A DNA stretch of 64,000 nt, from assembly GCA_946636615.1 (NCBI GenBank), contig CAMPBE010000004.1, positions 1 to 64,000 on the forward strand, given 5' to 3'. A model generated the notes under the pieces. That model did no database searches. It worked only from the letters and a program-made list of their open reading frames with translations, and was not told the DNA's origin. The translations under genes were made by a program, and so were the position numbers. This DNA comes from an uncultured bacterium (GTDB taxonomy: Bacteria; Cyanobacteriota; Vampirovibrionia; Gastranaerophilales; Gastranaerophilaceae). This document shows, piece after piece, positions 2,905-56,627 of this stretch (the first letter of the stretch is position 1; the number at the start of each line of letters is the position of its first letter).

Positions 2905-3570
2905 TTAAACCAACGATAATTGTTTTTCTCCGGCAAAAATATTGTCTGAAGAAATATCAATTGAATCATGATTTACATCATAAAGAACCTCATTTTTAAT
3001 ATTTCTCAAATCTTCTTGCATCAATCTTCTTGGAGAACCTTCTTCCATAGAATGGTTTCTTAATAAATATGATGGATGGAAAATTGTTATTGCTCTGTAT
3101 TCTTTTCCGTCAACAGAAACATTCATCCATTGACCTCTTACTTTTGAAATTGTTTGTTTTTTATCTAACTCTACAAATGATTTTAGAGCAGTCGCACCAC
3201 AAAGAACGATTGCTCTTGGATTAATAATATCAATTTGTGCTTCTAAAAATTTTCTGCAAGCTGATTTTTCATCATCTGTCGGGACTCTGTTTTCAGGAGG
3301 TCTGCATTTTACTGTATTTATAATATAAACATCTTCTTGTCTGGAGATGCCTGCTTCTGCCAAAAATTCTGTTAAAAGTTTTCCTGCCCTGCCAACAAAC
3401 GGAGTTCCTGTCATATCTTCAGTTTCCCCGGGAGCTTCGCCTATCAATACAATTTTTGCAGTTGAAGGGTTACCGTCAGAAAAAACTATATTATTTCTTG
3501 TGCTTCCCAATGCGCAAGCATGACATTTTTCACATTTACCTCTAACTATCTCCAAACAATCTTTTTTCAT
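2905..3570 (-). CDS. Type-4-like (Fe-S) uracil-DNA glycosylase, copy 1
   Basis: CEKCHAC cluster motif, GEAPGETEDMTGTPFVGRAGKLL, NTVKCRPPENR, IFHPSYLLR. Confidence 0.9.
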   Translation of the reverse strand: MKKDCLEIVRGKCEKCHACALGSTRNNIVFSDGNPSTAKIVLIGEAPGETEDMTGTPFVGRAGKLLTEFLAEAGISRQEDVYIINTVKCRPPENRVPTDDEKSACRKFLEAQIDIINPRAIVLCGATALKSFVELDKKQTISKVRGQWMNVSVDGKEYRAITIFHPSYLLRNHSMEEGSPRRLMQEDLRNIKNEVLYDVNHDSIDISSDNIFAGEKQLSLV

Positions 3571-5033
3571 ATTTTCTCCTCTTTAAATAATCCTACGTTG
3601 TATTTTTTACAATAACGTCTCAATTCTTTCATTATCACATCTGATAACATAAATACTGCTATTAAGTTTGGCACAGCCAAGAATAAAGTAAATGCATCAG
3701 ATAGATTAATTATACTTTTAAAATTCATGGCAGAACCAATAATAATGAATATACAATATATAACCTGAAAAGTCCTTGTTGTCAATTTTGTATCACCAAA
3801 TAAATAATTCCACGCCTTAATTCCGTAATAAGAACCGCAAAGCATTGTCGATAGCACAAAGCAACTTGCCATAAATGTTAATAATATTGGGAAAAATGGA
3901 CACACACTACCAAATGCTTTTGATGTTAATTCAATCCCAGCAATACCTGTCGTATTAAGATATTCACCAGAAACTACAATTACAAAGGCTGTTGCAGAGC
4001 CAACTATCACTGTATCAACAAAAGGTTGAAGCATCGCAATAAAGGCTTGAGCAACAGGTTTTGATGTTTTTACTGCAGAAAAAGCAATCGGTGCAGTGCC
4101 GAGCCCTGCCTCATTTGCAAACATTGCTCGTCTAAATCCCCATAGCATACAAGCAAAAACCCCGCCTGTTAATGCTCGAGGTTCAAATGCCTCTTTTAAA
4201 ATCATATGAACTGTATGCGGAACATGCCCGATGTGATATAAACAAATTGCAAACGCAGTTAATACATACAGAGTACACATCACAGGCGTGACTTTTGAGG
4301 TAAATTTTCCTATAGCTTTTATACCACCTATAATAGTTACATATGTGATAACAGCAACTATCAAACCCAACAACCAACTTTGATTTGCAAAGAAACTATG
4401 TTCTCCTCCTGTAACCTCAGTTATTTGCGTTGTCATTGCATTTATTTGAAACAAGTTCCAACCACCAATCATTGCGAATATACAACAAATTGCATAAATC
4501 TTTGAAAGATGTGGGGCAAACTTTCCTATATATTTATTGTTTTTTAATGCACCTTCAATATAATACATAGGGCCGCCAGCAATAGTTCCGTCAGAATTAA
4601 TTTTTCTAAATTTTATACCCAATAAGACTTCTGCAAATTTTAGCGCCATCGAGAAAAATCCTGCGCAAATCATCCAAAAAATTACTCCCGGTCCTCCAAT
4701 TGAAACTGCAGCGGCAGAGCCTGCAACATTACCAATACCTGCCGAAGCTGATATAGTTGCAGTAAGCGCTTGAAAAGATGACACCTCGCCACGTTTCTTC
4801 TTTTTTATTATATCTTTATGTTCATAATTCTTTGTTATAAGTTTTAAAGCATGCTTAAATCCCCAAATTCCGATAAAGCGTGTTCTAAATGTAAAATAAA
4901 AAGCAGCAGACATTAAGAGGGCTACCAAAAATTCAATCCTCACACCTTGAATTGTAACTGAACTGAATATTATCCCTGAAATTTTATCGGCTATTGGAGA
5001 TAAAAGGGTATCTATTGCTGCATCTAAATTCAT
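3567..5033 (-). CDS. Alanine/glycine:cation symporter (AGCS) family protein
   Basis: Multi-pass; ATISASAGIGNVAGSAAAVSIGGPG and FANEAGLGTAPIAFSA are typical AGCS motifs. Confidence 0.92.
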   Translation of the reverse strand: MNLDAAIDTLLSPIADKISGIIFSSVTIQGVRIEFLVALLMSAAFYFTFRTRFIGIWGFKHALKLITKNYEHKDIIKKKKRGEVSSFQALTATISASAGIGNVAGSAAAVSIGGPGVIFWMICAGFFSMALKFAEVLLGIKFRKINSDGTIAGGPMYYIEGALKNNKYIGKFAPHLSKIYAICCIFAMIGGWNLFQINAMTTQITEVTGGEHSFFANQSWLLGLIVAVITYVTIIGGIKAIGKFTSKVTPVMCTLYVLTAFAICLYHIGHVPHTVHMILKEAFEPRALTGGVFACMLWGFRRAMFANEAGLGTAPIAFSAVKTSKPVAQAFIAMLQPFVDTVIVGSATAFVIVVSGEYLNTTGIAGIELTSKAFGSVCPFFPILLTFMASCFVLSTMLCGSYYGIKAWNYLFGDTKLTTRTFQVIYCIFIIIGSAMNFKSIINLSDAFTLFLAVPNLIAVFMLSDVIMKELRRYCKKYNVGLFKEEKI

Positions 5034-5120
5034 TACTTGTATATTTTAACATAAACATATTGCAAAATTACACATTATAAAAAGTTTGCGATATAATATA
5101 ATAAAATAAGGAGCAAAATT

Positions 5121-6167
5121 ATGTGCGATGTAGTAACAATTGGAAGTGCCACAATGGATGTTTTTGTAGAATGTGAAGACGCAAATATAGTATCTGTTTC
5201 TACAAAAAATAAAAAATCAGAATTTATGAGCTACCCATACGGTTCAAAGGTAGAGATATCTGATTTTTCATCACAAGTCGGCGGAGGTGGAGTTAACACC
5301 GCCTGCAACTTTTCAAATCTTGGATATAAAGCATGCGCAATGTTTAAAGTAGGAGATGATATTTATTCTGAAGGCATATTATCCTTTTTAAAAGATAAAA
5401 ACATAGATATGAATTGCATCGTACAAGATCCGAAAATGAGCACCGGTTTTTCGATAATTCTTGTAAGTTTTCAAGGGGACAGAACCGTTCTGGCACACAG
5501 AGGTGCAAACGGAAAAATAAAAAAATCAGATATTAACTTTGAAGCAATAAAGAAAGCAAAACTTGTATATATAGCACCTTTAAATGGGGATAGTACAAAA
5601 GTTCTTGATGATATAGTTAATTTTGCAAAAGAAAATGATGTTATAGTTTGCTTTAACGCAGGAACATCAAGCATTAAAAAAGGCTTTAACTATATGAGAA
5701 AGATATTGGAAAATGCTCACATAGTTGTTATGAATAAAGAAGAAGCATCAATGGCAACAGGAATTCAAGTAAGACCTGACACAAGCAAAGATAAATTTTC
5801 AGAACAACTTGTTCACCCTGATATCAAAGAAATGTTCCAAAAGTTAAAAGTAAGAGATTATCAGGTAATTGTAATCACAGACGGCGGTCGTGGCGCATAT
5901 GCCTATGCAGGCGACAAATACTTCTTCTGTCCTGTATTTGACGGTCCTGTTGTATCAACACTTGGCGCAGGTGATGCTTTTGCATCAACTTTCTGTGCAG
6001 CGTTGGCAAAGAGCGAGCTTGATATAGGAAAGTCTCTAATGTATGCTTCTGTTAATTCATCAGGTGTTGTTTCACAATTTGGTGCAACTCAAGGCCTTAT
6101 GACTTTTGATGAGATTGAAACTAAACTCTTGGAACACCCTGAATATACATACCAGACTGCAGATTAG
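5121..6167 (+). CDS. PfkB-family carbohydrate kinase
   Basis: GGGGVNTACNFSNLGYKA and VSTLGAGDAFASTF signatures. Confidence 0.9.
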   Translation: MCDVVTIGSATMDVFVECEDANIVSVSTKNKKSEFMSYPYGSKVEISDFSSQVGGGGVNTACNFSNLGYKACAMFKVGDDIYSEGILSFLKDKNIDMNCIVQDPKMSTGFSIILVSFQGDRTVLAHRGANGKIKKSDINFEAIKKAKLVYIAPLNGDSTKVLDDIVNFAKENDVIVCFNAGTSSIKKGFNYMRKILENAHIVVMNKEEASMATGIQVRPDTSKDKFSEQLVHPDIKEMFQKLKVRDYQVIVITDGGRGAYAYAGDKYFFCPVFDGPVVSTLGAGDAFASTFCAALAKSELDIGKSLMYASVNSSGVVSQFGATQGLMTFDEIETKLLEHPEYTYQTAD

Positions 6168-6913
6168 TCTGCATCTTTTTCATAAGTTTTAATCAACTCG
6201 TAATCCCAAACAAGAGTCGAAATAGTTAAAAGATATATCAACAGAATTCCTGTTAAGAAATTAGATAATTTGGTAATTGTAAATTGCATAGAAGATAACA
6301 TAATTCCAACACTCTCAATATTACCTCTGTGCACTATCGCCAAGAATGTTCCGAACATAAAGAAAATTATAAACACAACAAAAGTTACTAATATATACGC
6401 AAATATAAATACCCATAATCTCTTAAAAAACAAAGATATATAATGTTTTAGCGATGGGTTTTCAAATAATTTATAAGCTTCATTACTATTATAATTATAT
6501 GAAAAACCTGATTGAATCATTGTAAGTGGGATTGCAAGCAGCATTTCTGTAGCAAAGGCAACTCTTAAATAATCAGGAAAAATTTTTGCAAATGTCATCG
6601 GGACAACAAAAAACAAAAAGAAAATCAACGGTTTTTGAAAAAACAATTGAAACGGTCTAAAATCAATATCAGGCAACTCTCTTTCATGCAAAAATATAAC
6701 TTCATATCCTATTATAAACACAGAAAAAATAAACCAAGCCAAAATATACAAACTTTTTGCTAAGATGCCTAATGATTCAACACCATCAACCGTAACACAA
6801 ACATCAATAAGTCCCAATATTCCACACAAAGAAAATAAAGCTATATGCCTGGAAAAAGATTCCTTTCCACTATATATCCTTTTTATCCCCTCTAACATTT
6901 TCATAAATTTCAA
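6164..6913 (-). CDS. Hypothetical multi-pass membrane protein
   Basis: Several hydrophobic segments; convergent 4-nt overlap with the PfkB gene. Confidence 0.7.
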   Translation of the reverse strand: MKFMKMLEGIKRIYSGKESFSRHIALFSLCGILGLIDVCVTVDGVESLGILAKSLYILAWFIFSVFIIGYEVIFLHERELPDIDFRPFQLFFQKPLIFFLFFVVPMTFAKIFPDYLRVAFATEMLLAIPLTMIQSGFSYNYNSNEAYKLFENPSLKHYISLFFKRLWVFIFAYILVTFVVFIIFFMFGTFLAIVHRGNIESVGIMLSSMQFTITKLSNFLTGILLIYLLTISTLVWDYELIKTYEKDAD

Positions 6914-6982
6914 TCTCCTAGAAAAATTATATCAATTTACATCTTAATTGCAAGAAGATATTTTTTTAGATAAAATTTAGTC

Positions 6983-8059
6983 ATGGAGACTGAAATTAAA
7001 CAACAATTTACTTTGTTACAAGAACGTTTTAATAAAATAAATACATTTGATTTAAGTTCATTAAAAAAAGAAGTTGAAGAATTAGAAACGCAGCTTCAAT
7101 CCCCAGAAATTTGGGCTGACCAAAAAAGAGCTTCCGAATTGGGCTCAAAAATTAGGGATATTAAAGATATTGTTGAATTTATTAACAAATGGCAAGCCGT
7201 TCTTGACGATACCGAAACAGCGTTAGAAATTGGCGATGAAGATTTAATCAAAGAATGCTCAATATCACTGCAAGAAATGGAAAAAGCATTGGACAAATTT
7301 GAAATCAAACAAATGCTAAATGGAGAATATGATGAAGCCGATGCAATTCTGACAATAAACGCAGGAGCTGGCGGCACTGATGCACAAGATTGGGCGAGTT
7401 TGTTACTTAGAATGTATATGAGATGGGCTGAAAACAAGAATTGGAAAGTTGAATTATTAGACAAACTTGACGGCGATGAAGCGGGTATAAAATCTGCTAC
7501 AATCAAAATTACAGGCAAATATGCATACGGTTATTCCAAAGCAGAAAAAGGGGTTCACAGATTAGTCAGAATCTCTCCGTTCAACGCAAACGGCAAACGT
7601 CAAACCAGCTTTGCTTCAGTTGAAGTTTCACCTATAATAGAAGATTTTGAAAAAACAATAACAATTCCGCCTGAAGAACTTGAAATAGATACAATGCGCT
7701 CAGGTGGTGCAGGCGGACAAAATGTAAATAAAGTAGAAACAGCCGTTAGAATTTTACACAAACCTACAGGAATAGTCGTAAAATGTCAGCAAGAACGTTC
7801 ACAGTTACAAAATAAAGAAAATGCAATGCAAATTTTGGCTTCAAAACTTCTTGCAATTCGTCAGGCTGAGCATGAGAAAAAGCTTGCTGAATTAAAGGGA
7901 GAAAATGTTGATATCAATTTTGGTTCCCAAATTCGCTCTTACGTATTCCATCCATACAAAATGGTAAAAGATCATAGAACAAACTATGAAGTCAGCAACG
8001 TAGATGCTGTTATGGACGGTGATTTAGACGGATTTATTGAGGCTTATTTAAAAAGCTAA
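6983..8059 (+). CDS. prfB: Peptide chain release factor 2 (uninterrupted ORF)
   Basis: Contains the GGQ motif ([21 protein letters not shown]) and RF2-type domain order. Confidence 0.95.
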
Positions 8060-8268
8060 TCAAAACAAATTTTCTTTAATTCAAATTCAATATCATCAAC
8101 TTTTTCTAACTTTTCACTCAAGAGATTTGTTAGAATATATAAATGATTAGCACAATCTGTTGTAAAATCCGATTCACAGATTTTGTTCAAAAAATACGCA
8201 ATATCGTATATGCTGTCTAAAATCTCGTCCATTTTTTCTAAATGTGATTTAATTATTTCTTTGTTCAT
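8056..8268 (-). CDS. Hypothetical 70-aa protein
   Basis: Complete ORF convergent with prfB, stop codons overlapping. Confidence 0.55.
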
Positions 8269-8439
8269 TTCATTGTCACTTTCTTTTTACAAAAATTATA
8301 TAACTAATTAAAGTAATAAACCACACGCAATAATATGAAAAATTCATATTATTACATAATTTTTGTCATTATTGTACAAGTCAAGTAATAATTTACATAA
8401 TTACAATAATGCAATACGGTATAAAATAATTAAGCATAA

Positions 8440-8690
8440 ACTTTCCGGACCTTTGACGGAGTGAACAATCAATGTTTGTGAGGAAATAACAAAGGCTCGT
8501 ACTGTCTGAACGGTAATTTTTTAGATTCTGAATCAAGTTCAGAATGACAGTTAAAAAAGTGAGTTTACGAGCCTTTTACCGAACAATTACATTGATGTGA
8601 ACGAAGGAACAGGTCCAAGTTTCTTTGGTGTCTTTCTTTTCGACAAAAGAAAGACACTGCAGGGGTGCAGGGGCAGCATAAGCCCCGCAT
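8440..8690. repeat. Composite intergenic inverted-repeat element
   Basis: Nested complementary arms: ggacct/aggtcc, catcaatgt-like arms, aggctcgta/tacgagcct, ttctgaa/ttcagaa; then gtgtctttctttt-cgac-aaaagaaagacac and ggggc/gcccc hairpins. Confidence 0.7.
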
Positions 8691-8828
8691 ATAGATATAG
8701 TTGTTGTATTTATTATCAGATAAAGAAATTATCAATTTAATAATCCTGCTAAAAAATACTGCTTATGTGTTGTATATTACATAATATAATGCGTTGTTTA
8801 TAGCAACAAAATATCTTATTATTAACCT

Positions 8829-9047
8829 ATGGATGAAAAACTGATAAAATTAGGAAATTGTATAAGATTTCAAAGATTACAACAAAAACTTTCACAAGAA
8901 CAATTAGTAGAAAAATCAAACTCAATAACAGCACAACACCTAAGCAAGATTGAAAAAGGTCAAGTTGATATGAGAGTATCTACGTTGTTTGCAATCCTGA
9001 AAGCTCTAAATTGCAAACTTGAAGATTTAATTGATTTATCTGAATAG
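8829..9047 (+). CDS. XRE-family helix-turn-helix transcriptional regulator
   Basis: IRFQRLQQKLSQEQLVEKSNSITAQHLSKIEKGQVDMRVSTLFAILKAL. Confidence 0.85.
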   Translation: MDEKLIKLGNCIRFQRLQQKLSQEQLVEKSNSITAQHLSKIEKGQVDMRVSTLFAILKALNCKLEDLIDLSE

Positions 9048-9057
9048 AAAGATTTGG

Positions 9058-9172
9058 CTACCCCTCACATTATGGGAGGGGAGTGATGGGTGGGTATTAT
9101 TTCCGTTGTTGCTGATAGAAAATGAAATTACAATTTATTTGTGGGCACATTTCATTTTGCCCACACTACATG
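9058..9172. repeat. Intergenic palindromic repeats
   Basis: cccctcacattatgggagggg and gtgggcacatttcattttgcccacac are near-perfect palindromes. Confidence 0.5.
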
Positions 9173-9805
9173 CTAAATTAAATTTTCTCCATGCAAATCA
9201 GTTCCGCCGGTTTTTATCAGATTATATTTATCTGCAACTTTTTCAACAGATTCAGCCTTATGAAATTTTATTATTCCTCTATGTCTTTTGTATGGATAAT
9301 AAACTTCAATGCCGTCAAGTCCAAATGAAATAAGTTTTTTTACAAACCTGTCAAGACTAAAACACCAACAGCAAGCAGGATGTGCCAATACTGCGATACC
9401 ACCGGCATTGTGTATTGCATTCATTAGTTTTTTTAGATTTCTTGTTGAAAAAATTCTTACTATATCAGCTTCTGTTTCTTTTTTATTCTTTGCCATAAAT
9501 TTCAAAAGTTCAGCATTTTCAACATTTATTCCATAAGCTAGCAAATGCAAAAATACATATCCGCACCACACGTCAAATTCAACAGCAGGGAGCAAAATGT
9601 CATCTTTAATTAATTTATGAGCGTCAACTGTATTATGGTCACAAATTGCTATTTTTTTGTATCCTTTGGTTTTTGCTTGTCTGACTATATCTTCTGCATC
9701 AGCCTTTCCGTCTGAAAATGTTGTATGAATATGCAAATTTACACTATTACTTTCAAAATCTTCACGACTAAAAGACTTCATTTCTTCCAGAAAAGAACTT
9801 TTCAC
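9173..9805 (-). CDS. PHP-domain metal-dependent phosphoesterase
   Basis: NLHIHTTFSDGKADAEDIV, ICDHNTVDA, LAHPACCW, GTDLHG motifs. Confidence 0.88.
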   Translation of the reverse strand: MKSSFLEEMKSFSREDFESNSVNLHIHTTFSDGKADAEDIVRQAKTKGYKKIAICDHNTVDAHKLIKDDILLPAVEFDVWCGYVFLHLLAYGINVENAELLKFMAKNKKETEADIVRIFSTRNLKKLMNAIHNAGGIAVLAHPACCWCFSLDRFVKKLISFGLDGIEVYYPYKRHRGIIKFHKAESVEKVADKYNLIKTGGTDLHGENLI

Positions 9806-9866
9806 ATTTTACCTTTCACTTTTAAATTCTTTGTACTACAATAATTTTACAACAAAAGGGTTTTAT

Positions 9867-10868
9867 ATGGCAAAAAAAGAAAAACGAGTTTTAAGCATTT
9901 TTTTTGAAGGGTTAAAAATATATTGTCTGAATATTCATAAATTTCTTTTATACATGCTATTTCCTGTATTAGGTCAGCTATTAGGTATTTGGCTTGTTTT
10001 TGGAATAACTTATTGGTACACATCAAATATTCAGGATTTATCAACAAAATTTCCAGCATTAAACGAACCAACTTCAATGATATTCTGCGTTTTACTAGCT
10101 ATAATTCCGGGATTAATTATTTTCATGCGAGCATTCTGGGATTATCTTGTTGCATATGGCGCGTTGAACTCTATGACTGAAGGTTATCTGAACACAGGCA
10201 GAGTTTATGATTTTAAATCCCATAATGAAGTTGTATTAAACAAGACATTTTCATTTATTGCACTATGGTTTTTATTTGGTTTGTTTACATTGCTTGCAAC
10301 AATTCCTATTTTTTGGATTTTAGGCTTTATATTTTTCGTATATTTTATATTAATTTTTCAAGTATTTACATTTGAAAACGGACTTTCACCAATCGGATAT
10401 TTCAGAAGAAGCCTAGTAATCATAAAAGGTAACTTTGCAAGAACATTTCTTTTGATGACAATTCTTGTTATTTTAACTTACTATCTTTTAACATCAGGAC
10501 TTACTGTTGTTTTTGATTATCTAAATTGGACTCATTCTTTATCAAAAGGCCTTGAAAATTGGGTTTTAACATTACCAATAGAACCACTTGAACCTCTTGG
10601 AATTACTCCTTCAAAAATATCAATAATGATTATTCAAAACATAATTATGTTTGTCGCAGTCGGTTTTACACTACCGTTAAGAAGTATTTGTTGGACTCTT
10701 TGGTATAATAACTTGAATGATGTTGTTCCAGAAGAAATTAGCAAACCTCTAAAGAAAAAATCAACAAAAAAAACATCTAAAAAATTACCGAAAAATTTCA
10801 AGATAGAAAAAAGAGAAATTGATCCTGAAATAATAAGACGTGCTAGACTTGAGGATGACGAATACTAA
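9867..10868 (+). CDS. Hypothetical multi-pass membrane protein
   Basis: ORF 9831..10868; MAKKEKR... at 9867 is the more likely start; Lys-rich C-terminus. Confidence 0.7.
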   Translation: MAKKEKRVLSIFFEGLKIYCLNIHKFLLYMLFPVLGQLLGIWLVFGITYWYTSNIQDLSTKFPALNEPTSMIFCVLLAIIPGLIIFMRAFWDYLVAYGALNSMTEGYLNTGRVYDFKSHNEVVLNKTFSFIALWFLFGLFTLLATIPIFWILGFIFFVYFILIFQVFTFENGLSPIGYFRRSLVIIKGNFARTFLLMTILVILTYYLLTSGLTVVFDYLNWTHSLSKGLENWVLTLPIEPLEPLGITPSKISIMIIQNIIMFVAVGFTLPLRSICWTLWYNNLNDVVPEEISKPLKKKSTKKTSKKLPKNFKIEKREIDPEIIRRARLEDDEY

Positions 10869-11092
10869 TGTTTATTTGCAAAAATTGTAAATCCATTGAT
10901 AAATTTGAACTTATGTTTTCTCCCAACTATCAAGGAGAAAAGAGTTTTTTTCAAGAATATAACAAAAATGGTGACATTGAAATAACAGTAGACGGATACA
11001 AATTTATACCCGACTTACAATTTATGAATGAACACGCAGTATGTAAATATTGCGGACAGATATATATGTGGGACTACGAAGGTAAACTTTAG
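10868..11092 (+). CDS. Small zinc-ribbon-like protein
   Basis: CKNC...CKYC paired Cys motifs; TAATG overlap with the upstream ORF. Confidence 0.65.
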   Translation: MFICKNCKSIDKFELMFSPNYQGEKSFFQEYNKNGDIEITVDGYKFIPDLQFMNEHAVCKYCGQIYMWDYEGKL

Positions 11093-11101
11093 GAGAATAA
11101 T

Positions 11102-11797
11102 ATGAAAAGAGAAGGCAGAAAAAATGATGAGATGCGTAATATTAAATTTACAAAAGATTTCACAAAACATGCACTAGGTTCGGTACTTGTTGAATTTGGT
11201 GACACAAGAGTAATCACAACAGCATCAGTAGAAGAAGGTAAACCCAAATGGATGGACAAAGAAGATACAAGAGGTTGGGTGACTGCAGAATATTCTTTAT
11301 TACCATCAGCCCCAAATACAAGATGTCAGCGAGAAAGAACAAAAATTTCAGGAAGAACTCAAGAAATTCAAAGATTAATTGGAAGAAGCTTGAGAGCATG
11401 TGTTGATTTAGAAAAAATGCCTGATTTGACAATAACAATAGATGCTGATGTAATTCAAGCAGATGGCGGCACAAGAACAGCAAGCATTTGCGGAGGATTT
11501 TTAGCTTTAAAAATTGCTGTAGAAAAATTGCTTGCAAGCGGAACGTTAAAAGAAAATCCTATTATTGAGCCAATTGGTGCAATTTCTGCAGGCATAGTAG
11601 ACGGGGAAGTAAGATTAGATTTGGAATATATCGAAGATTCTATTGCTCAGGTTGATAGCAATATTGTTTTAACAAAAAGCGGGAAAATTATTGAATTTCA
11701 AACTACAGCAGAGGGTGCCCCTTATGAACAATCTGAAATGTTAAAAATCTTTAATGTTGCACAAGAAGGTATTAAAAAAATTATTGAAATGTATTAA
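11102..11797 (+). CDS. rph: Ribonuclease PH
   Basis: EFGDTRVITTASVEEGKPKW, GRTQEIQRLIGRSLRACVDL, DADVIQADGGTRTASI. Confidence 0.95.
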   Translation: MKREGRKNDEMRNIKFTKDFTKHALGSVLVEFGDTRVITTASVEEGKPKWMDKEDTRGWVTAEYSLLPSAPNTRCQRERTKISGRTQEIQRLIGRSLRACVDLEKMPDLTITIDADVIQADGGTRTASICGGFLALKIAVEKLLASGTLKENPIIEPIGAISAGIVDGEVRLDLEYIEDSIAQVDSNIVLTKSGKIIEFQTTAEGAPYEQSEMLKIFNVAQEGIKKIIEMY

Positions 11798-11909
11798 TTA
11801 GTCGAAAAATCGAACAATTGAATAGTTGGAGCTTTCAAATTTTATAAATAAAAAATTTGCAAAATTTCAACTGTTTAAGTATAATATTTTTGTAAAAGGA
11901 GAGAAAATT

Positions 11910-12209
11910 ATGAAAAAAACATTAGTAGCTTTAATGGCAGTAGTTATGTTATCAACAACAGCAGTTTATGCAGCTAACCCTGTATCTAATTGGTTAAACA
12001 AAACTGCAGATTCAATCGAATCAACAAATAAATCAGTAAAAGCTGAAGAACAATCTTGGATTTCTCAATGGAAAGCAAAAAGAGCTGAAGCTAAAGCAAA
12101 AAGAGATGCACAAGAAGCTCAGGCAAAAGCAAAACAAGCAGCTTTTAACAAAGAAGTAAAAGAGACAAAAAATGCATTCAAAAGATTGTTTACTTGGGAT
12201 TGGAACTAA
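11910..12209 (+). CDS. Small secreted Ala/Lys/Glu-rich protein
   Basis: Signal peptide MKKTLVALMAVVMLSTTAVYA; start refined from ORF 11826..12209 with GGAGAG upstream. Confidence 0.7.
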   Translation: MKKTLVALMAVVMLSTTAVYAANPVSNWLNKTADSIESTNKSVKAEEQSWISQWKAKRAEAKAKRDAQEAQAKAKQAAFNKEVKETKNAFKRLFTWDWN

Positions 12210-12231
12210 TAATTAAATAGTTACAATTATT

Positions 12232-12265
12232 AAAAAAGACATCTCTTTTAGAGGTGTCTTTTTTG
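12232..12265 (+). terminator. Rho-independent terminator
   Basis: aaaaaagacatctcttttagaggtgtcttttttgc. Confidence 0.85.
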
Positions 12266-12296
12266 CATTAAAAAATTGTTGTGCTACAATCATCGT

Positions 12297-13883
12297 ATGC
12301 AAACTTTAATTAAAACACTGACCGGAGCACAATTAATTATACAGACCCTGAAAGAATTAGGTGTAGATAGTATATTTGGCTATCCGGGAAGTGTCATTCT
12401 AAATTTATATAATGAATTATCAAAACAAAGCGACATAAAGCACATTCTTACTCGTCACGAGCAGGCTGCTTGTCACGCAGCAGACGGTTATGCCAGAGCT
12501 TCTGGTAAATGTGGTGTTGTGCTTGTTACAGCGGGACCTGGAGCAACAAATATTGTTACAGGACTTGCAAATGCTTATCTTGATTGTTCTCCTATAATTG
12601 CAATTACCGGTCAGGTCGCTTCTCAAAAATTAAACAAAGAAGCTTTTCAAAAAGTCAACATTACTGATATTACCAAAACCTGCACAAAAAAGAACTTTCA
12701 AGTTTCAAATATAAATGAATTACAAAAAACTATAATTGAGGCATATAATGTTGCGATGTCAGGAAGAAAAGGGCCTGTTCTTATCGACATTACAAAAGAT
12801 GTACTTTCTTCTACCATTACAAGTACAACAGAAAATACTATATTAAATTCTGAACAATTATATTCTGTTAATATTCAAGGAGCAGTCGATTTATTAAATA
12901 AATCAACAAAACCTGTAATAATTTCCGGCGGAGGCGCTCCAACAAAAGCTGTTAAAGCGATTTCGGAAAAATTAAATATTCCAATTGTCAGAACAATGAT
13001 GGGATATGTTGATTCCAAAAATTATATTGGAATGATAGGCATATATGGAGATAAAAAAGCAAATAAAATTGTCCGAGAAAGCGATTTAATTTTTGCAATA
13101 GGAACAAGATTAAACGACAGGGTAACAAGTTGTTTTAAAGCTGAAGATTTTTGCAACAAACTTCTATACCTTGATATAAAACCATCAATTATAGATGCAA
13201 AAATAAAACTTGTCGGAGATGCTGAAATTTTATTAGACCAAATAAGAGAACAAGTTCAGCAATCAGAGAACAAAATCTGGCTTGATTATGCAAAAAGCAT
13301 GAAAACTGTTGAAAATGTCAGACGTTCGAATCTTTTGCATTCATTTGATGTGATAAATGAAATACAAAAATACAAACAGGATTTGACAGTCACTACTGAA
13401 GTCGGTCAACATCAAATCCTCGCAGCAAAAACACTTAGATTTAATTCAAAAAATAAATTTATCACCTCCGGCGGTTTGGGCACAATGGGCTTTGGTTTTC
13501 CTGCAGCAATAGGCGCTAGCGTTGCACAAAACAAGTCAAAAGTTATCTGTATAGCAGGTGACGGTTCTTTTCAAATGAACATGCAAGAACTTGCAACTTG
13601 TATTCAGTACAAGCTGCCAATTAAGATATTTATTCTGAACAACGGTTATTTAGGTATGGTAAGGCAAATACAGGAAAATAATTTTGATGAAAATTATTTT
13701 GCAACAAAGCTCACAAATCCTGATTTTGTAAAACTTGCTCAAAGTTATGGCGCAATGGGCATAAGAGTAGAAAAAATGGCAGATTTAAAACCGGCAATAG
13801 AAAAAGCTTTATCGTCAGAATTACCTGCAATTATTGATTGTATTGTTGAACCAATGGAACTTATTGATTATCAGTCCATTTGA
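12297..13883 (+). CDS. ilvB: Acetolactate synthase large subunit-like ThDP enzyme
   Basis: GYPGSVILNLYNEL, RHEQAACHAADGYARASGKCGV, VTAGPGATNIVTGLANAYLDCSP, GDGSFQMNMQELAT; start refined to MQTLIKT. Confidence 0.88.
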   Translation: MQTLIKTLTGAQLIIQTLKELGVDSIFGYPGSVILNLYNELSKQSDIKHILTRHEQAACHAADGYARASGKCGVVLVTAGPGATNIVTGLANAYLDCSPIIAITGQVASQKLNKEAFQKVNITDITKTCTKKNFQVSNINELQKTIIEAYNVAMSGRKGPVLIDITKDVLSSTITSTTENTILNSEQLYSVNIQGAVDLLNKSTKPVIISGGGAPTKAVKAISEKLNIPIVRTMMGYVDSKNYIGMIGIYGDKKANKIVRESDLIFAIGTRLNDRVTSCFKAEDFCNKLLYLDIKPSIIDAKIKLVGDAEILLDQIREQVQQSENKIWLDYAKSMKTVENVRRSNLLHSFDVINEIQKYKQDLTVTTEVGQHQILAAKTLRFNSKNKFITSGGLGTMGFGFPAAIGASVAQNKSKVICIAGDGSFQMNMQELATCIQYKLPIKIFILNNGYLGMVRQIQENNFDENYFATKLTNPDFVKLAQSYGAMGIRVEKMADLKPAIEKALSSELPAIIDCIVEPMELIDYQSI

Positions 13884-14470
13884 TTATAAACTTTTCTGAT
13901 TTCCTGAATATCTTGCCACATAAGCCACTTTGGAGAGCCCTTTTCTCTGGAATCATTTCGCAACAGATATGACGGATGAAATATTGGCATCATTTTTGAA
14001 TTGTTAGGACCTGCAAACCATTTCCCTCTGATTTTTGTGATACCTAATTTTGTATCCAAAAAAGATTGAACGGCAACTCGACCACATAAAAGTATAATTC
14101 TCGGTTTTAAAATCTCTACTTGAGCATCGAGATATTCACGACAAGCCGCTTTTTCGTCAGGCAGCGGATCTCTGTTTTCAGGTGGCCTGCATTTTAAAGT
14201 GTTGCAAATATAAACATCTTTTTGTCTTGAAAACCCGACAGATTCCAAAATTTTGTCAAGTAATTGCCCTGCTTTTCCAACAAAAGGTTCTCCTTTTTGG
14301 TCTTCATAATATCCAGGAGCTTCACCTATAAGCATAAGCTTATGATTCGGTACGCCCGCCGAAAAAACTGTTTTTGTCTTTGTTTTGCACAATGAACATT
14401 TTTGACAGTTTCGGCATTTAACGAAAACTTCATTTAACTTATCTTTTTCTTCTTGAGTCGCTTCATACAT
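13871..14470 (-). CDS. Type-4-like (Fe-S) uracil-DNA glycosylase, copy 2
   Basis: CRNCQKCSLC, GEAPGYYEDQKGEPFVGKAGQLLD, NTLKCRPPENRDP; paralogue of 2905..3570. Confidence 0.9.
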   Translation of the reverse strand: MYEATQEEKDKLNEVFVKCRNCQKCSLCKTKTKTVFSAGVPNHKLMLIGEAPGYYEDQKGEPFVGKAGQLLDKILESVGFSRQKDVYICNTLKCRPPENRDPLPDEKAACREYLDAQVEILKPRIILLCGRVAVQSFLDTKLGITKIRGKWFAGPNNSKMMPIFHPSYLLRNDSREKGSPKWLMWQDIQEIRKVYNQMD

Positions 14471-50772: not shown

Positions 50773-50958
50773 TTAATACTCTTCACGAATTACTTTTTGA
50801 GTTTCTTCTTTGTTTTGCCTATCTGCATCAAAGAACTTTTTCATTGTTTTTTCTTTCATGATAGTATTTGTTGCATCCGTTTTAAATTGATTTAAATCAA
50901 CATTCATATAAGCCCAAACCACAGCAGCAACTATAGCAATAAAAATAAAAAATTTCAT
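50773..50958 (-). CDS. Small single-pass membrane protein
   Basis: MKFFIFIAIVAAVVWAYMNVDLNQ... Confidence 0.55.
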   Translation of the reverse strand: MKFFIFIAIVAAVVWAYMNVDLNQFKTDATNTIMKEKTMKKFFDADRQNKEETQKVIREEY

Positions 50959-51022: not shown

Positions 51023-52012
51023 CTAATATATCGAAATTTCGTATGAACCGTTATTTATTTTAAAATTCATCTGAATGGTTTCGCCATTATAGCCTGACGG
51101 AGGAGGCGAAAACTTAGGAACACTCATCATCATATAATATACAGCATCGTTTAAACTTTTATTATCAGATTGTTTTACAAAGCTTCTGTTTATTAATTTT
51201 CCCGTAGAATCTACAGAAAACTTTACAGAGCAGCTACCTGAACCTTGAATACTTCCTACAGCAAATTTTGAAAACATTGCAGCTCTCAAATTACCTTTGT
51301 ATCGAAGCATCTCTGGACTATTTGGGTTATATGCAGGTTTTTGAGGTTCAATTTTCGCTTCTTGACGGGTTGTTTTTGGAGTAACAGGCTCATATAATTT
51401 TGGGGATGGCGCACTCATCTGTTTTTGAGTAACTGATTTTTGTTCATTATTTAACTGAGTTTTTTGCACAAGTTGAGCGCTTTGTTTTTGCTTTGTAGTT
51501 CTTTGAGAACTTGATTGATTTTTTGGTGCAGTTGATTTAACTTGTTTTTGCTCAATTTTTGGTTTTTGTTGCTGTACAACCCTCTTTTGTTCAACAGGTT
51601 TTGGCTTGGCATAATCAGGAACATCCGTAAGAGAAATTGGTGTTTTATCTATCAAAACAGATTCCGGTTCTTCTAATCTTTTTTCAACATAAACAGGTGT
51701 ATTATCCCAAAACTTGTCTATGGGAGGAATATCTTTTGTATTCTGAATTTGAACTTCTGTTGTTTCTTGTTTTACATTATCAACTTTTACAGGAATAAGC
51801 CAAATAATTATTGATAAAATAATACAAAATACCAAAAACAAGCGGGATAAAATTTCACTTTTTTGTTCTATAGTGAGCGGTTGTTTTTGATGTTTTACCA
51901 TTTTTTTGGGGGAAATCGGTTTATCTTCTATATAATCAAAAGTATTATTTCCACAATCACAATATTCTACTTTTTGGGCAAATTTTGCACCACACTCTTT
52001 ACATATATACAT
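51023..52012 (-). CDS. Zinc-ribbon + transmembrane + TonB C-terminal-like protein
   Basis: CKECGAKFAQKVEYCDCG N-terminus, one transmembrane segment, long Lys/Gln/Pro linker, TonB-like C-terminal domain (GSCSVKFSVDSTGKLINRSFVKQSDNKSLNDAVYYMM). Confidence 0.75.
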   Translation of the reverse strand: MYICKECGAKFAQKVEYCDCGNNTFDYIEDKPISPKKMVKHQKQPLTIEQKSEILSRLFLVFCIILSIIIWLIPVKVDNVKQETTEVQIQNTKDIPPIDKFWDNTPVYVEKRLEEPESVLIDKTPISLTDVPDYAKPKPVEQKRVVQQQKPKIEQKQVKSTAPKNQSSSQRTTKQKQSAQLVQKTQLNNEQKSVTQKQMSAPSPKLYEPVTPKTTRQEAKIEPQKPAYNPNSPEMLRYKGNLRAAMFSKFAVGSIQGSGSCSVKFSVDSTGKLINRSFVKQSDNKSLNDAVYYMMMSVPKFSPPPSGYNGETIQMNFKINNGSYEISIY

Positions 52013-52019
52013 AACAAAA

Positions 52020-52199
52020 CTATTTTATCATTAAAATTAATTTATACAAACCATAAATAACAAGCGCATTTAAAAACATAAGAATCAAAATAGCCATTTG
52101 TCTTGTTATATCATAAGCCTGCTTAGCTTTTAAAAATTTTAAAAAGAAAGGAAGCTCAACAATTATAATAACTACAAAAAACACAATAGTACTTAACAT
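52020..52199 (-). CDS. 59-aa hydrophobic small protein (below ORF-track cutoff)
   Basis: MLSTIVFFVVIIIVELPFFLKFLKAKQAYDITRQMAILILMFLNALVIYGLYKLILMIK*; tightly packed between cluster genes. Confidence 0.65.
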   Translation of the reverse strand: MLSTIVFFVVIIIVELPFFLKFLKAKQAYDITRQMAILILMFLNALVIYGLYKLILMIK

Positions 52200-52202
52200 A
52201 TT

Positions 52203-52343
52203 TTATTTAGCCTTTTTGTAAATTATTTGTTCAAGCATAAATGATTTATGCATTTGAGGTTTTAGCTGAGCTATTACAACTGTTGCAATAGCTAATAATA
52301 CAAGAAAAATTATTGATATTGTAACTATTTTTTTTATATCCAT
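52203..52343 (-). CDS. 46-aa single-pass small protein (below ORF-track cutoff)
   Basis: MDIKKIVTISIIFLVLLAIATVVIAQLKPQMHKSFMLEQIIYKKAK*; AGGAT-like ribosome-binding site. Confidence 0.65.
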   Translation of the reverse strand: MDIKKIVTISIIFLVLLAIATVVIAQLKPQMHKSFMLEQIIYKKAK

Positions 52344-52355
52344 AAAAATCCTTTC

Positions 52356-53291
52356 CTAACGAACAACTCTTTCATAATCAGAATAATTATCAGGTGTAGA
52401 ATACCTAGTTTGAGTACCAATCAAAAACATACCGGTTACAACGGTCGAAGTTCTTTTTGTTCCTCTCGGAAAATTCAAAATAGGTTTCTTTTGAAGATTT
52501 GAAATTGCCGGTTTAACGTTATTTCTTGCAACATCCATAAAACTTGGATGAGAACACTCTACTTTTATGTTTGATACATTTCCAAACTTATCCACAATAA
52601 ATGTGAATGTAAACACTGTTCCATACGGCGCAAAATCAATATTCGAATCTTTCATAATTTGATTTTGAATATTACTTCTCCAAACATTCCAAGCAATAAT
52701 TTCTTCTTCTTCAGTCATATAAGGATTTGAAGAACTTTTTGGTTGAGATGGAGTTGTTTTAACCGTTTTTGTTTGATTATTTGTTGGAGTTTTAGGCGTT
52801 TCAACAACTTTTGTTTGCTTTGTTGATTTTGGAGTTTCAGTATTTATATATTTTGTAGTTTTTGTTTCTTCAGGCTGTTTTACAACTACAGAATTTTCAG
52901 TATTTTTCATAACCCTTTGCAGCAGTTCCATCTGACTTGTCCTGTCTGAATTTGGATTTTGAGCAACCTTCACTTCTTTTTTTGCTGGTTTTATATCATT
53001 TGTTTGAACATATTTTACGACAGGCTGCTCCTGCTGTCTGTTATAAATTTCGATTGCTTTTTTGGCAGATTCTTTCTGTTCGGGAACTGAAATCTCTATA
53101 TTTTTTTTATTTTCAATATTAGAAACATTTGCAACAGGAATATTATCAGTTGTTATATTGTCACTAATTCTTGTCAACACAAAATCGGCATCTTCCAACA
53201 ACATCGGTTGATGCATCTCAGGGTGAATTTGTATTGTTAATATAGTTAACACTACAAATGCAATTATTACAGCTATTTTTAGAAAATCCAT
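52356..53291 (-). CDS. TonB-like C-terminal protein with N-terminal anchor
   Basis: MDFLKIAVIIAFVVLTILTIQ anchor, Thr/Lys/Pro-rich linker, TonB-C-like FTFTFIVDKFGNVSNIKVECSHPSFMDVARNNV; start refined from ORF 52356..53306. Confidence 0.72.
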   Translation of the reverse strand: MDFLKIAVIIAFVVLTILTIQIHPEMHQPMLLEDADFVLTRISDNITTDNIPVANVSNIENKKNIEISVPEQKESAKKAIEIYNRQQEQPVVKYVQTNDIKPAKKEVKVAQNPNSDRTSQMELLQRVMKNTENSVVVKQPEETKTTKYINTETPKSTKQTKVVETPKTPTNNQTKTVKTTPSQPKSSSNPYMTEEEEIIAWNVWRSNIQNQIMKDSNIDFAPYGTVFTFTFIVDKFGNVSNIKVECSHPSFMDVARNNVKPAISNLQKKPILNFPRGTKRTSTVVTGMFLIGTQTRYSTPDNYSDYERVVR

Positions 53292-53328
53292 GTTACACTT
53301 CCGCAATAAAGTTTTAGAATATTTAAAC

Positions 53329-54936
53329 TTAATCTTTATCTACTTTAGACAACAATTCATCACAAGCATAAATTTCAAATTTTGTTTGACTTAATATCAG
53401 AGTTTCCGCAATTAATAATGCAGTAGGAACCAGAGCTGCTACAAAACTTAAAAACAGTCCTTGCATATCACCGCCAATTTCTGTCATAAAGAAAGAAACA
53501 TTCATTGCAAATTCAATAAATATAATAGCACATCCAATTGCAAGAGCTCTGCGTCTGTCAGACTCTAATCTTCTGACGCCTTCCAAACCGTAAATAGTAA
53601 CACCATGATGTTGATAGTCACTAAAACCGTCTTGCTTAATTACCTGTGAACCTTCTATTTTCTTAGTACAAGTAAATGCACCAACAAAAGAAAAGAACGC
53701 AAATATTATCAAACAAGTTGCAAGTATCAAAAATACAGGACTAATTCTCAAACCTGAAATTCTAACCCATCCAGCAGCTTCAGGGAAACAATTTGCTAAA
53801 GTGTTTGAAACACCATAAGCCAAGAAAGGTGCTGTTAGAATACCTACGACAGTTTCGCCCCAAGATTTTAATTGCAAATTAAACATTTTATCTTTTATAT
53901 ACTGAATTTTTGAATTACTCAAACTGTTGATATATCTTTCAATCCACTGTCTGTATGATTTTATAACGCTTTCAAAGTCTTCTCTGTATTCATACTTATC
54001 AAGTGTCAATGCCCATTCTGTACCATTACATTTAAAGTATCCGCAACTTATAGCCAAAACAGCCATTATACCTGAGAAAAAGAATGAAATAAATATTGCA
54101 AATGTCATAAAATCATTCAAATTCATATAATAAACCAGATTTACAACATAAATTCCAAGGACAAATATTAATGAAAATATCAACATAAAACTCTGTCCTA
54201 ATTTCGAAGATTTTGACAAATCTTTTTGAACATTGCTCTGTAAATACAAGTAAATTCCCTGTTTTAGCAACAAGCAAATACCATAAATCATTATTGTATA
54301 AATAACCCAGACTTTTATATTTGTAGGCAAATGCAAGAAACTTGCCGACTCTTTAATATTTAATCCCATCAAATAGTTTGACACACCAAATGCACAAATC
54401 ATTGCACTGAAAAACATTGCAATATGTAAAAACAAACTTGTTTTTGAATTTGCAGAAAGTTTATTTTTCAAATCATTAATATGAAATGCAACTTGCTTTG
54501 TTATCGCAACTCTGGCGCTTTCTAAATCTTCTTTTTGTTTTTCAAGTTTTACTTTTGTAACAGCATTCACGTCTTTTCCATACAAACCTTTTATATCTTC
54601 TTCAGTCAAATCTTCTTTTCCGATAGATGTAACTGTTTTTACTGCAGGTTCAGCATTTTCAGCAATAAGCTTTACAGCAACAAATTCATCAGAATCAGCA
54701 AACATCAACTTACAAACATTTGAAACTTCAACTCTTTTTATCGGCTGACCTTTAAAAAGAACTTTTTCACTCTGAAAATTATTTGTTATTGTACATTTTC
54801 CGTTAACCAATTGCAAAGTCAAAAGAATGTCATAATTTAAATTCAAAACGACATCACAATTAGGATTAGTTCCTATATTAACTACATCTTTACTAAATAC
54901 TTTTTCACCGTTTTTTGATGCTATTATTATTGCCAT
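53329..54936 (-). CDS. Multi-pass membrane protein with FHA-like N-terminal domain
   Basis: N-terminal VNIGTNPNCDVVLNL... resembles an FHA beta-sandwich start; about 8 hydrophobic segments follow. Confidence 0.55.
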   Translation of the reverse strand: MAIIIASKNGEKVFSKDVVNIGTNPNCDVVLNLNYDILLTLQLVNGKCTITNNFQSEKVLFKGQPIKRVEVSNVCKLMFADSDEFVAVKLIAENAEPAVKTVTSIGKEDLTEEDIKGLYGKDVNAVTKVKLEKQKEDLESARVAITKQVAFHINDLKNKLSANSKTSLFLHIAMFFSAMICAFGVSNYLMGLNIKESASFLHLPTNIKVWVIYTIMIYGICLLLKQGIYLYLQSNVQKDLSKSSKLGQSFMLIFSLIFVLGIYVVNLVYYMNLNDFMTFAIFISFFFSGIMAVLAISCGYFKCNGTEWALTLDKYEYREDFESVIKSYRQWIERYINSLSNSKIQYIKDKMFNLQLKSWGETVVGILTAPFLAYGVSNTLANCFPEAAGWVRISGLRISPVFLILATCLIIFAFFSFVGAFTCTKKIEGSQVIKQDGFSDYQHHGVTIYGLEGVRRLESDRRRALAIGCAIIFIEFAMNVSFFMTEIGGDMQGLFLSFVAALVPTALLIAETLILSQTKFEIYACDELLSKVDKD

Positions 54937-54948
54937 TCAAATACCTCA

Positions 54949-55653
54949 TTATCTTCCAAGTGCATTTAAAAATTTTCTAATTTGCTTATCCACGTTTTGT
55001 TCAGGAGCAATTATCAATTTCTGTTCTCCTAAAACAGGTCCTAGTTTTTCCTTTACCAAATCCAATTTTGACGGATGAGCATACAAAAACATCATAGAAA
55101 TTTCAGGTGCATATTTTTGAACTTCTGCAACATTCTTTGGTAATGTATCCCAATTAACCTGTTTTTCTGCAGCACCTTCATTTTCTAAATCTCCAATTAC
55201 AACAATCGAAGGTACATATCCGTCTTTTTTCATAGTTAACGCATGGGTAAAAGCTTTTTTTATACCTTCACCATATGCCGTACCATAATCTTTTTCATCA
55301 TATTTCGTATATGTATCAAGAGATTTTTGAATTGCGCTTCCATTCATAGGCGACCCCTCATAAATCAGATACGCATCTTGAGAAACTCTCAAAATTTTAA
55401 CTTGATCTTCAGGATCCAACAAATTACAAACTTGTTTCAATGTCTTTTTCTGCATAGTCAAAGCATTTTGATTTGAAGCAGAAGAATCAATTAAAAATAT
55501 TACTGCTGCGGGATGAAAATCATCAACCTTTATTTTACTTAATCCTGTCCAAATAAATTTTAAAGCTACAGACAAAACAAGTAAAATTAATCCGACAGTT
55601 ATTAACCTTCTATTCAATTTCATTTTTACCACCTTACTATTAAAATATAGCAT
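54949..55653 (-). CDS. VWA-domain single-pass membrane protein
   Basis: VIFLIDSSASNQNAL (MIDAS DxSxS), GTAYGEGIKKAFTHAL, IVVIGDLENEG; start may be 55623 (MKLNRR). Confidence 0.8.
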   Translation of the reverse strand: MLYFNSKVVKMKLNRRLITVGLILLVLSVALKFIWTGLSKIKVDDFHPAAVIFLIDSSASNQNALTMQKKTLKQVCNLLDPEDQVKILRVSQDAYLIYEGSPMNGSAIQKSLDTYTKYDEKDYGTAYGEGIKKAFTHALTMKKDGYVPSIVVIGDLENEGAAEKQVNWDTLPKNVAEVQKYAPEISMMFLYAHPSKLDLVKEKLGPVLGEQKLIIAPEQNVDKQIRKFLNALGR

Positions 55654-55700
55654 AAGAGCTGCATATCTGCAAATTTTAAAATCAAATTTTTACAAATTTA

Positions 55701-56627
55701 TTATTGCATATAATATGGGGAAGCATTAACAGGTTCAACAAGAGTAACTGTAATTGTCGTTCCATCAGGAATTGTAATTTCATCACCTCTTTGCATAGCG
55801 CCATGAACACCACCGCCTAAAGCGCCAATACCTCCATAAATAAGCATATTTCTGCCCCAATCATTACCACCGCCCATTGCAGTAAAAGCAGCTCCTAAAA
55901 GCATACTGCCTAAAGCTCCTAAAACAACATCCCTTGTCATTTTAGCAGCTCTTTTGCTATCTGCTTGCATAACTATTTTTTTAGTTGAAATAGGTAGTAT
56001 ATTTCCATCCGGCATTAATATTTCGTTAAAATTCAGTTCAATACTTCCACTTCCGTATGCATATCCGGCATTTTTTGCTTCAGTTGCAGTCCCATAAACA
56101 AGACTGCCTGCAGGTGCTACAAGTTGACCATTATATCTCAGATCTTCAGTCAACCTGACAGTTAATCTGTCATTCTTTTCCATACTGCCTGAGCTTACAC
56201 CGGAATCAAAAGTTACATCAAATTTTGTACCGGCAGGGACTTTAACAACAGAGCCATATAATTTTTGCTGCTGAGGCTGAGGATTAATAATCTGTTGCTC
56301 CTGTCGATTTATTTGCTGCAATAAATCATCTTGAATTGGATAAAATTGCTGCGTTTGCTGCGGCTGTGTATCAATTAACAAACCATCAGATGGAGGAGCC
56401 GGAGAAGGTTCATAATGAATTCTTTCCTCGACTTCAATCTTCTTATTCCTGTTTTTAGATTTATTAATTTCCGTCTTATTTTTTGATTTAGAAAAATCAT
56501 ACCCCTGCATATTAATTTGCTGCTGCCTGTCAAATTCTTCCTGAGCGGCATCACTAAAATCATAATCAGCAAAAACAGGTGCACTAAAAAATTGTATACA
56601 TAATAAGATAGATACTATTCTTTTCAT
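55701..56627 (-). CDS. Exported protein with VirB10/TrbI-like C-terminal pattern
   Basis: Signal MKRIVSILLCIQFFSAPVFA; VPAGTKFDVTFDSGVSSGSMEKNDRLTVRLTEDLRYNGQLVAPAGSLVYGTATEAKNAGYAYGSGSIELNFNEILMPDGNILPI. Confidence 0.6.
   Translation of the reverse strand: MKRIVSILLCIQFFSAPVFADYDFSDAAQEEFDRQQQINMQGYDFSKSKNKTEINKSKNRNKKIEVEERIHYEPSPAPPSDGLLIDTQPQQTQQFYPIQDDLLQQINRQEQQIINPQPQQQKLYGSVVKVPAGTKFDVTFDSGVSSGSMEKNDRLTVRLTEDLRYNGQLVAPAGSLVYGTATEAKNAGYAYGSGSIELNFNEILMPDGNILPISTKKIVMQADSKRAAKMTRDVVLGALGSMLLGAAFTAMGGGNDWGRNMLIYGGIGALGGGVHGAMQRGDEITIPDGTTITVTLVEPVNASPYYMQ

Follow-up and report, generated by a model that had tools for sequence, protein, structure and literature searches.

A candidate TonB/TolA-class trans-envelope complex centred on a multi-pass membrane protein in the Gastranaerophilaceae

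Transducers of the TonB/TolA type are known together with motors of the ExbB/TolQ type. In Myxococcus, the bitopic protein GltG joins FHA and TonB regions in a single chain (PMC3169522), and the Agl-Glt complex engages CglB, a VWA adhesin at the cell surface (PMC12288465, PMC13104615). VWA proteins that are tethered by a transmembrane (TM) segment and lie beside TolQ-like motors have recently been proposed as force transducers (PMC12204202). Here we describe a gene cluster that invites comparison with each of these systems. It occupies positions 51023-56627 of the window, a stretch of 64,000 nucleotides (positions 1 to 64,000 of contig CAMPBE010000004.1, assembly GCA_946636615.1) from an uncultured bacterium of the family Gastranaerophilaceae. 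An earlier note, made from the letters alone, had proposed that the cluster encodes one uncharacterised envelope-spanning complex. That the conserved genes belong to one system is well supported by comparison of sequences; we further suggest, at a probability of about 40%, that they encode a family-specific trans-envelope complex of the TonB/TolA class, which acts on VWA proteins and has a multi-pass protein, here called FHM, as its hub in the inner membrane. Searches of the open-access literature found no account of such a cluster. The genes, and one further reading frame beyond them, are as follows.

55701..56627, minus strand: VirB10/TrbI-like exported protein, 308 aa (Pfam TrbI match below cut-off; BLASTP match to a paralogue)
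54949..55623, minus strand: anchored periplasmic VWA protein, 224 aa (longer reading frame starts at 55653; Pfam VWA_2 and VWA over cut-offs)
53329..54936, minus strand: FHM, core multi-pass membrane protein, 535 aa (alignment and topology)
52356..53291, minus strand: TonB-like protein a, 311 aa (316 aa as a reading frame from TTG at 53306; AlphaFold and Foldseek)
52203..52343, minus strand: 46-aa single-TM peptide (TM and KPxMHK box; 19 family members in loci)
52020..52199, minus strand: 59-aa peptide with two TM segments, the first bearing a Glu near its end (6 family members, closest loci)
51023..52012, minus strand: TonB-like protein b, zinc-ribbon, 329 aa (Pfam TonB_2 over cut-off)
50773..50958, minus strand: 61-aa single-TM reading frame 64 nt downstream of the cluster, a possible accessory or an unrelated gene

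All seven open reading frames (ORFs) of the cluster are present on the minus strand where the earlier note had placed them. From the VirB10-like gene to the VWA ORF and onward, the gaps are 47, 12, 22, 12, 3 and 7 nt, which bears out the close spacing first described; likely ATG starts trim the VWA and TonB-like a genes to the coordinates listed. Pfam and NCBIfam find no VirB4-, VirB11- or VirD4-type ATPase among the seven genes, PADLOC gives zero defence-system matches for the cluster, and a scan for promoters and terminators gave no useful signal (43 promoter-like sites, where 35 are expected). For the 61-aa ORF downstream, phmmer recovers only the ORF itself, with zero relatives among the loci examined.

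The case that these genes belong together comes from their relatives. Loci were ascertained through FHM: genes were called in 60 neighbourhoods of up to 18 kb, families were assigned by iterative hidden Markov models, and counts of gene order use the 58 loci with a full-length FHM. A VWA gene lies directly upstream of FHM in 51 of the 58 (median gap 13 nt), and a TonB-like gene lies directly downstream in 57 (median gap 2 nt, with frequent overlaps). The zinc-ribbon gene TonB-like b is next in order in 44/58 loci, and a VirB10-like gene precedes the cluster in 30/58, so both are optional parts. This order is far above chance among divergent relatives, whose FHM identity falls to ~40%, and several genomes hold two or three copies of the cluster. 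In a class-wide sample, full FHM is present in 73/73 genomes that have the anchored VWA protein, which is absent from genomes with the FHM N-terminal domain alone. The two micro-membrane genes proposed at first reading are also real: syntenic loci contain 19 members of the 46-aa family and six of the 59-aa family, and the 59-aa relatives hold the same place in the gene order.

The reach of this conservation is one family. FHM was found in 68/98 genomes and 29/41 genera of the window's own family, and had zero relatives outside it in samples of 194 class genomes and 294 phylum genomes; gene order is thus kept in relatives, as the earlier note required of its proposal, within the family and not across the wider class or phylum as sampled. 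Three of the 68 FHM genomes (G039, G069, G097) retain the N-terminal domain alone, of ~100 aa. The genus g39 mostly has this FHA-like domain by itself, as a ~100-aa ORF (G039, G097), with no VWA gene. Order, spacing, the co-occurrence of VWA and FHM and the domain composition all favour the single system proposed; that its products assemble into a complex we infer.

FHM has zero family matches in Pfam, NCBIfam and the sequences of the PDB. Its alignment (33 sequences, mean column identity 48%, the C-terminal half highly conserved) describes an FHA-like beta domain (about residues 1-95), a coiled region and about 8 TM segments, with the N-terminus inside by the positive-inside rule. K225, E361, E475 and N479 are invariant and E511 is nearly so, all in or at TM segments. 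A comparison of TM1-4 with TM5-8 as an internal repeat gave an hhalign probability of 28%, and no repeat is claimed. The earlier description of a multi-pass protein with an FHA-like N-terminus therefore stands firmly in its first part and less so in its second. The N-terminal domain matches Yop-YscD_cpl weakly (E=0.099) and aligns in register with a genuine FHA domain by hhalign (E=0.012); PF00498, the Pfam FHA family, gives zero match, and the phosphopeptide-binding residues are missing, GR having become GT and the S-R-x-H stretch being absent. We regard the domain as weakly supported to be FHA-like in outline. FHM weakly resembles the YscD/PrgH type, whose members are likewise membrane proteins with a degenerate FHA-like domain in the cytoplasm; it differs in being multi-pass and in having no ring-building periplasmic domains.

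The two TonB-like C-termini recognised at first reading were borne out by different routes, one by profile and the other by fold. TonB-like b begins with a cytoplasmic zinc ribbon (C4, C7, C18 and C20, all invariant in the alignment), followed by a TM segment, a Gln/Lys/Pro linker and a TonB domain. It matches Pfam TonB_2 at 29.5 bits (cut-off 22), as do 22/28 relatives, and aligns with the canonical TonB domain of the same genomes (hhalign E 1e-13, probability 98%) and with TonB in the PDB (E 7e-4). TonB-like a has one TM segment, a PxMH box, a Lys/Thr/Pro linker and a C-terminal domain at residues 190-311, with invariant W201, W204 and N210 and a conserved DY.D.ER tail. It has no convincing Pfam match (316/311 aa). 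Its C-terminus, modelled by AlphaFold from the single sequence (predicted local distance difference test, pLDDT, 74), forms helix-strand-strand-helix-strand, and Foldseek against the PDB placed TonB, TolA and HasB C-terminal domains at ranks 1-6 (best probability 0.99, E 0.016). Aligned by hhalign as domains only, a and b match with E 3e-4 and a probability of 41%; the full-length alignment is weak (13%) because of the linkers.

Both proteins thus share with the ExbBD-TonB and TolQR-TolA transducers a single TM segment, a long Pro/Lys linker and a TonB-type C-terminal domain. The cluster differs from those systems in having no ExbB/ExbD or TonB-dependent receptor, in its anchor motif, no SHLS-type motif being found in either alignment, and in its novel 8-TM hub. 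TonB-type proteins are also found more widely: TonB_2 domains number 2 to 7 per genome in 15 family genomes, with a ~1000-aa protein among them in many, and seven close relatives (L031-L035, L042, L045) have a convergent TonB_2-type protein of ~240-290 aa, with a signal-peptide-like start, beside TonB-like b.

The membrane anchor of TonB-like a has a counterpart in the cluster. The box after its TM segment reads PxMHK, and a matching box occurs in 40/52 TonB-like a proteins; in the 46-aa family the TM segment is followed by P-x-[ML]-H in 19/19 members, and the family profile pulls in the N-termini of TonB-like a. On these grounds the peptide is, by its sequence, a paralogue of the anchor of TonB-like a (TM and PxMHK) that stands alone, and not an unrelated micro-protein. 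Sister clusters have a slightly longer homologue upstream of the VirB10-like gene.

The anchored VWA protein with a DxSxS motif is confirmed by Pfam VWA_2 (31.2 bits, cut-off 27) and by Pfam VWA, also above cut-off; the residues of its metal-ion-dependent adhesion site (D46, S48, S50, T115 and D145) are conserved in 28-30 of 30 relatives. Its TM segment, LITVGLILLVLSVALKFIW, contains neither His nor Asp. A second kind of VWA gene flanks 16 sister loci (21 genes), either in convergent orientation against TonB-like b or on the upstream side of the VirB10-like gene. These genes encode secreted proteins with a signal peptide, mostly DxSGSM, and four invariant Cys, and most have a C-terminal Y-[EK]-[FY]-[IV] tail after a disordered linker. 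They occur in tandem, up to four copies beside locus L088, and they flank 6/7 loci that have no adjacent anchored VWA gene. Nearly all genomes, FHM-lacking ones among them, have a more distant paralogue.

With these parts described, the nearest working analogy is Agl-Glt/CglB of Myxococcus xanthus, a loose one that compares domain composition and not sequence. In both, parts in the inner membrane bear FHA(-like) and other domains on the cytosolic side, the periplasmic ends are of TonB type, and there is an extracytoplasmic VWA protein, which here stands beside the 16 sister loci and not beside the window's cluster; a separately encoded set of ExbB and two ExbD in the genome is comparable to AglRQS. 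The cluster differs in that its FHA-like region (FHM) and TonB regions (TonB-like a and b) are on separate proteins, and in having no TPR proteins and no adjacent AglRQS. With the TM-tethered vWA force transducers (PMC12204202) it shares a periplasmic VWA protein anchored in the inner membrane, in a setting like that of a force transducer, but its VWA protein has no SHLS motif and no TM Asp or His, and no tolQ-like neighbour is found at the 60 loci. Because the features that define these two systems were looked for and not found, we do not claim membership in either. The earlier note had named resolution of the domains to an already named system as a refutation test, and no such resolution was found.

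The first gene of the cluster encodes a protein with a signal peptide (MKRIVSILLCIQFFSAPVFADY, by inspection), a Pro/Gln linker and a TrbI-type beta domain, and near its C-terminus a glycine-rich hydrophobic 'antenna'-like insert precedes the last strand. Its match to Pfam TrbI (24.7 bits, E 2.4e-5) falls below the cut-off of 35, but it is related by BLASTP (3e-24, 32% identity) to the VirB10-like protein of its own genome's TonB-ExbB-ExbD operon, which passes that cut-off at 37.6, and the exported VirB10/TrbI-like protein proposed at first reading is thereby upheld. The beta domain and the insert are shared with VirB10/TrbI of type IV secretion; the signal peptide replaces the N-terminal TM segment, no further TM segment lying ahead of the beta domain to serve as an anchor, and no type IV secretion ATPase or other VirB gene accompanies it.

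The operon of that paralogue (contig C30 of the window's own genome, G000, 3307-7777) reads TrbI-like (~200 aa), VirB10-like, TonB, ExbB, ExbD, ExbD, and matches to VirB10-like, TonB and ExbB proteins adjoin one another in the other genomes checked. A VirB10-like partner therefore seems to be used twice. VirB10/TrbI-like proteins are expanded in 15 family genomes, with about 6 to 12 matches per genome in several separate places. On contig C72 of the same genome, a zinc-ribbon TonB-like b gene (49-1002) lies 66 nt upstream, on the same strand, of a second TrbI/VirB10-TonB-ExbB-ExbD-ExbD operon; this 5.3-kb contig may be foreign to the assembly or a duplicate. The absence of a TonB receptor, ExbB/ExbD and a VirB ATPase alongside the cluster, remarked on at first reading, is confirmed, with ExbB present elsewhere in every genome checked; those operons that could be read whole have two ExbD genes. 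The plug domain of TonB-dependent receptors is absent from 14/15 genomes, including the window's own, so ordinary TonB-dependent import is not the task of the TonB-like arms.

Considering these components together, we suggest the following scheme for the TonB/TolA-class complex. TonB-like a, and b where present, would dock on FHM through their anchors in the membrane, and the C-terminal domains would span the periplasm to a partner on the outer-membrane side, probably the VirB10-like protein where there is one. The anchored VWA protein would be a ligand-binding or client-handling subunit in the periplasm, and the secreted four-Cys VWA proteins are the likely clients in sister clusters, so that the machine would most plausibly present, move or tension VWA proteins at the cell surface. 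Since the 46-aa peptide and the TonB-like a anchor are alike, they may share a binding place, most simply on FHM, where the peptide would act as a decoy or spacer occupying the site of the anchor; the divergence of the FHM TM1-TM2 region in the one clade that has lost TonB-like a fits such a shared site. The conserved charges inside the FHM membrane segments and the secreted VWA genes beside sister loci also speak for the scheme. Energy might come from a separate ExbB/ExbD operon or from FHM itself. It is by inference from these comparisons that we assign the transmission of force or energy to the complex, the role of partner to the VirB10-like protein, that of client to VWA proteins and that of decoy to the peptide.

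Several observations weigh against this scheme. No ExbB/ExbD relatives are found in the neighbourhoods of the 60 loci, and FHM is itself rejected as a relative of ExbB or MotA (hhalign probability <1%, where the control comparison of ExbB with MotA gives 87%). Single-sequence AlphaFold models FHM with a pLDDT of 42, leaving the docking of the arms without structural support, and the loss of TonB-like a together with the divergence of TM1-TM2 is a single evolutionary event. High-scoring secreted VWA genes occur in 29/65 FHM-bearing genomes and 1/33 others, which favours the scheme, but these counts are uncorrected for kinship. Beside the window's cluster there is no secreted VWA gene; the genome has only the general paralogue, at another place.

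The glycine-rich insert of the VirB10-like protein bears on a different reading, a secretion or assembly device in which the secreted VWA proteins are delivered or inserted through a VirB10-like conduit in the outer membrane, opened or supported by FHM and the TonB-like arms. The insert sits where VirB10 bears its outer-membrane antenna, the C-terminal tail of the secreted VWA proteins resembles a sorting tag, and their tandem copies look like cargo. We nevertheless consider such a device somewhat unlikely: the VirB10-like gene is missing in 28/58 loci, neither an ATPase nor a secretin belongs to the cluster, and Sec-type signal peptides are present on the secreted VWA proteins, which have a related paralogue even where FHM is lacking.

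The cytoplasmic domains raise the question of whether energy is transduced at all. A static or sensory tether could link inner membrane, wall and outer membrane and report the state of the envelope through the FHA-like and zinc-ribbon domains, two distinct sensor-like domains on membrane components. The lack of a motor in the cluster and the many TonB_2-domain proteins outside ExbB operons in these genomes fit this reading. It is unlikely in our view, as energised systems typically have C-terminal domains of the TonB/TolA type and charges within the membrane like the invariant ones of FHM, and the linkage to secreted VWA proteins would be left unexplained.

The presence of ExbB in every genome checked, with two ExbD genes in the operons, and the TonB-like b gene ahead of the Exb operon on C72 would suit an accessory Tol/Ton branch, in which the TonB-like proteins are extra transducers of an ordinary ExbB/ExbD motor and FHM is a scaffold only. 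We think this quite unlikely: TonB-like a has no SHLS-type anchor and instead shares its PxMHK box with the peptide beside FHM, and ExbB/ExbD are unchanged in genomes that lack FHM. It is more doubtful still that FHM is a new engine coupled to the proton motive force, unrelated to ExbB/TolQ/MotA, which drives TonB-type arms on VWA surface proteins and is gated by micro-peptides that imitate the membrane anchor of the arm. That the cluster is part of a type IV secretion system, or of the type IV pilus encoded nearby, is very improbable: T2SSF, T2SSE-type ATPase and secretin genes do lie at 43.5-48.7 kb in the window and a VirB10-like domain is present, but pilus-type genes occur near at most two other loci (relatives of the T2SSF-type gene at 43524 near two, of the T2SSE-type ATPase at 44753 near one), the cluster has no VirB ATPase or coupling protein, and the VirB10-like protein has a signal peptide in place of VirB10's membrane anchor. 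The pilus genes that the earlier note had placed at 43.5-49.4 kb are thus real, their proximity is not kept in relatives and is incidental, and a link to type IV pili is rejected.

The interest of such a cluster lies in its pairing of two TonB-type proteins with a core membrane protein that belongs to no known family, and this where TonB-dependent receptors are almost lacking. Should the complex be energised, it must be driven by a known motor that serves a new branch, or else by a new motor; should it not be, the TonB domains are purely structural. The micro-peptide that mimics an anchor offers a compact test of arm docking.

Flagellar-type export genes also occur in this genome. A mutual exclusion of the cluster with flagella was considered and rejected, as higher-scoring FlhA is present in 19/65 FHM-bearing and 21/33 other genomes (p=0.002, uncorrected for kinship), a pattern which is not exclusive and is not used here. 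A lower-scoring FHIPEP class (about 730 bits) is found in nearly all 98 family genomes, also where the higher-scoring FlhA is lacking or, among the genomes checked for it, where MotA is. In the window's own genome (G000:C19:5000-23000), genes for FliE, FliF, a 348 aa protein, FliH and FlhA, the last of this lower-scoring class, lie together at 7963-13959, and this FliE-FliF-FliH-FlhA cluster may possibly encode a non-flagellar export apparatus.

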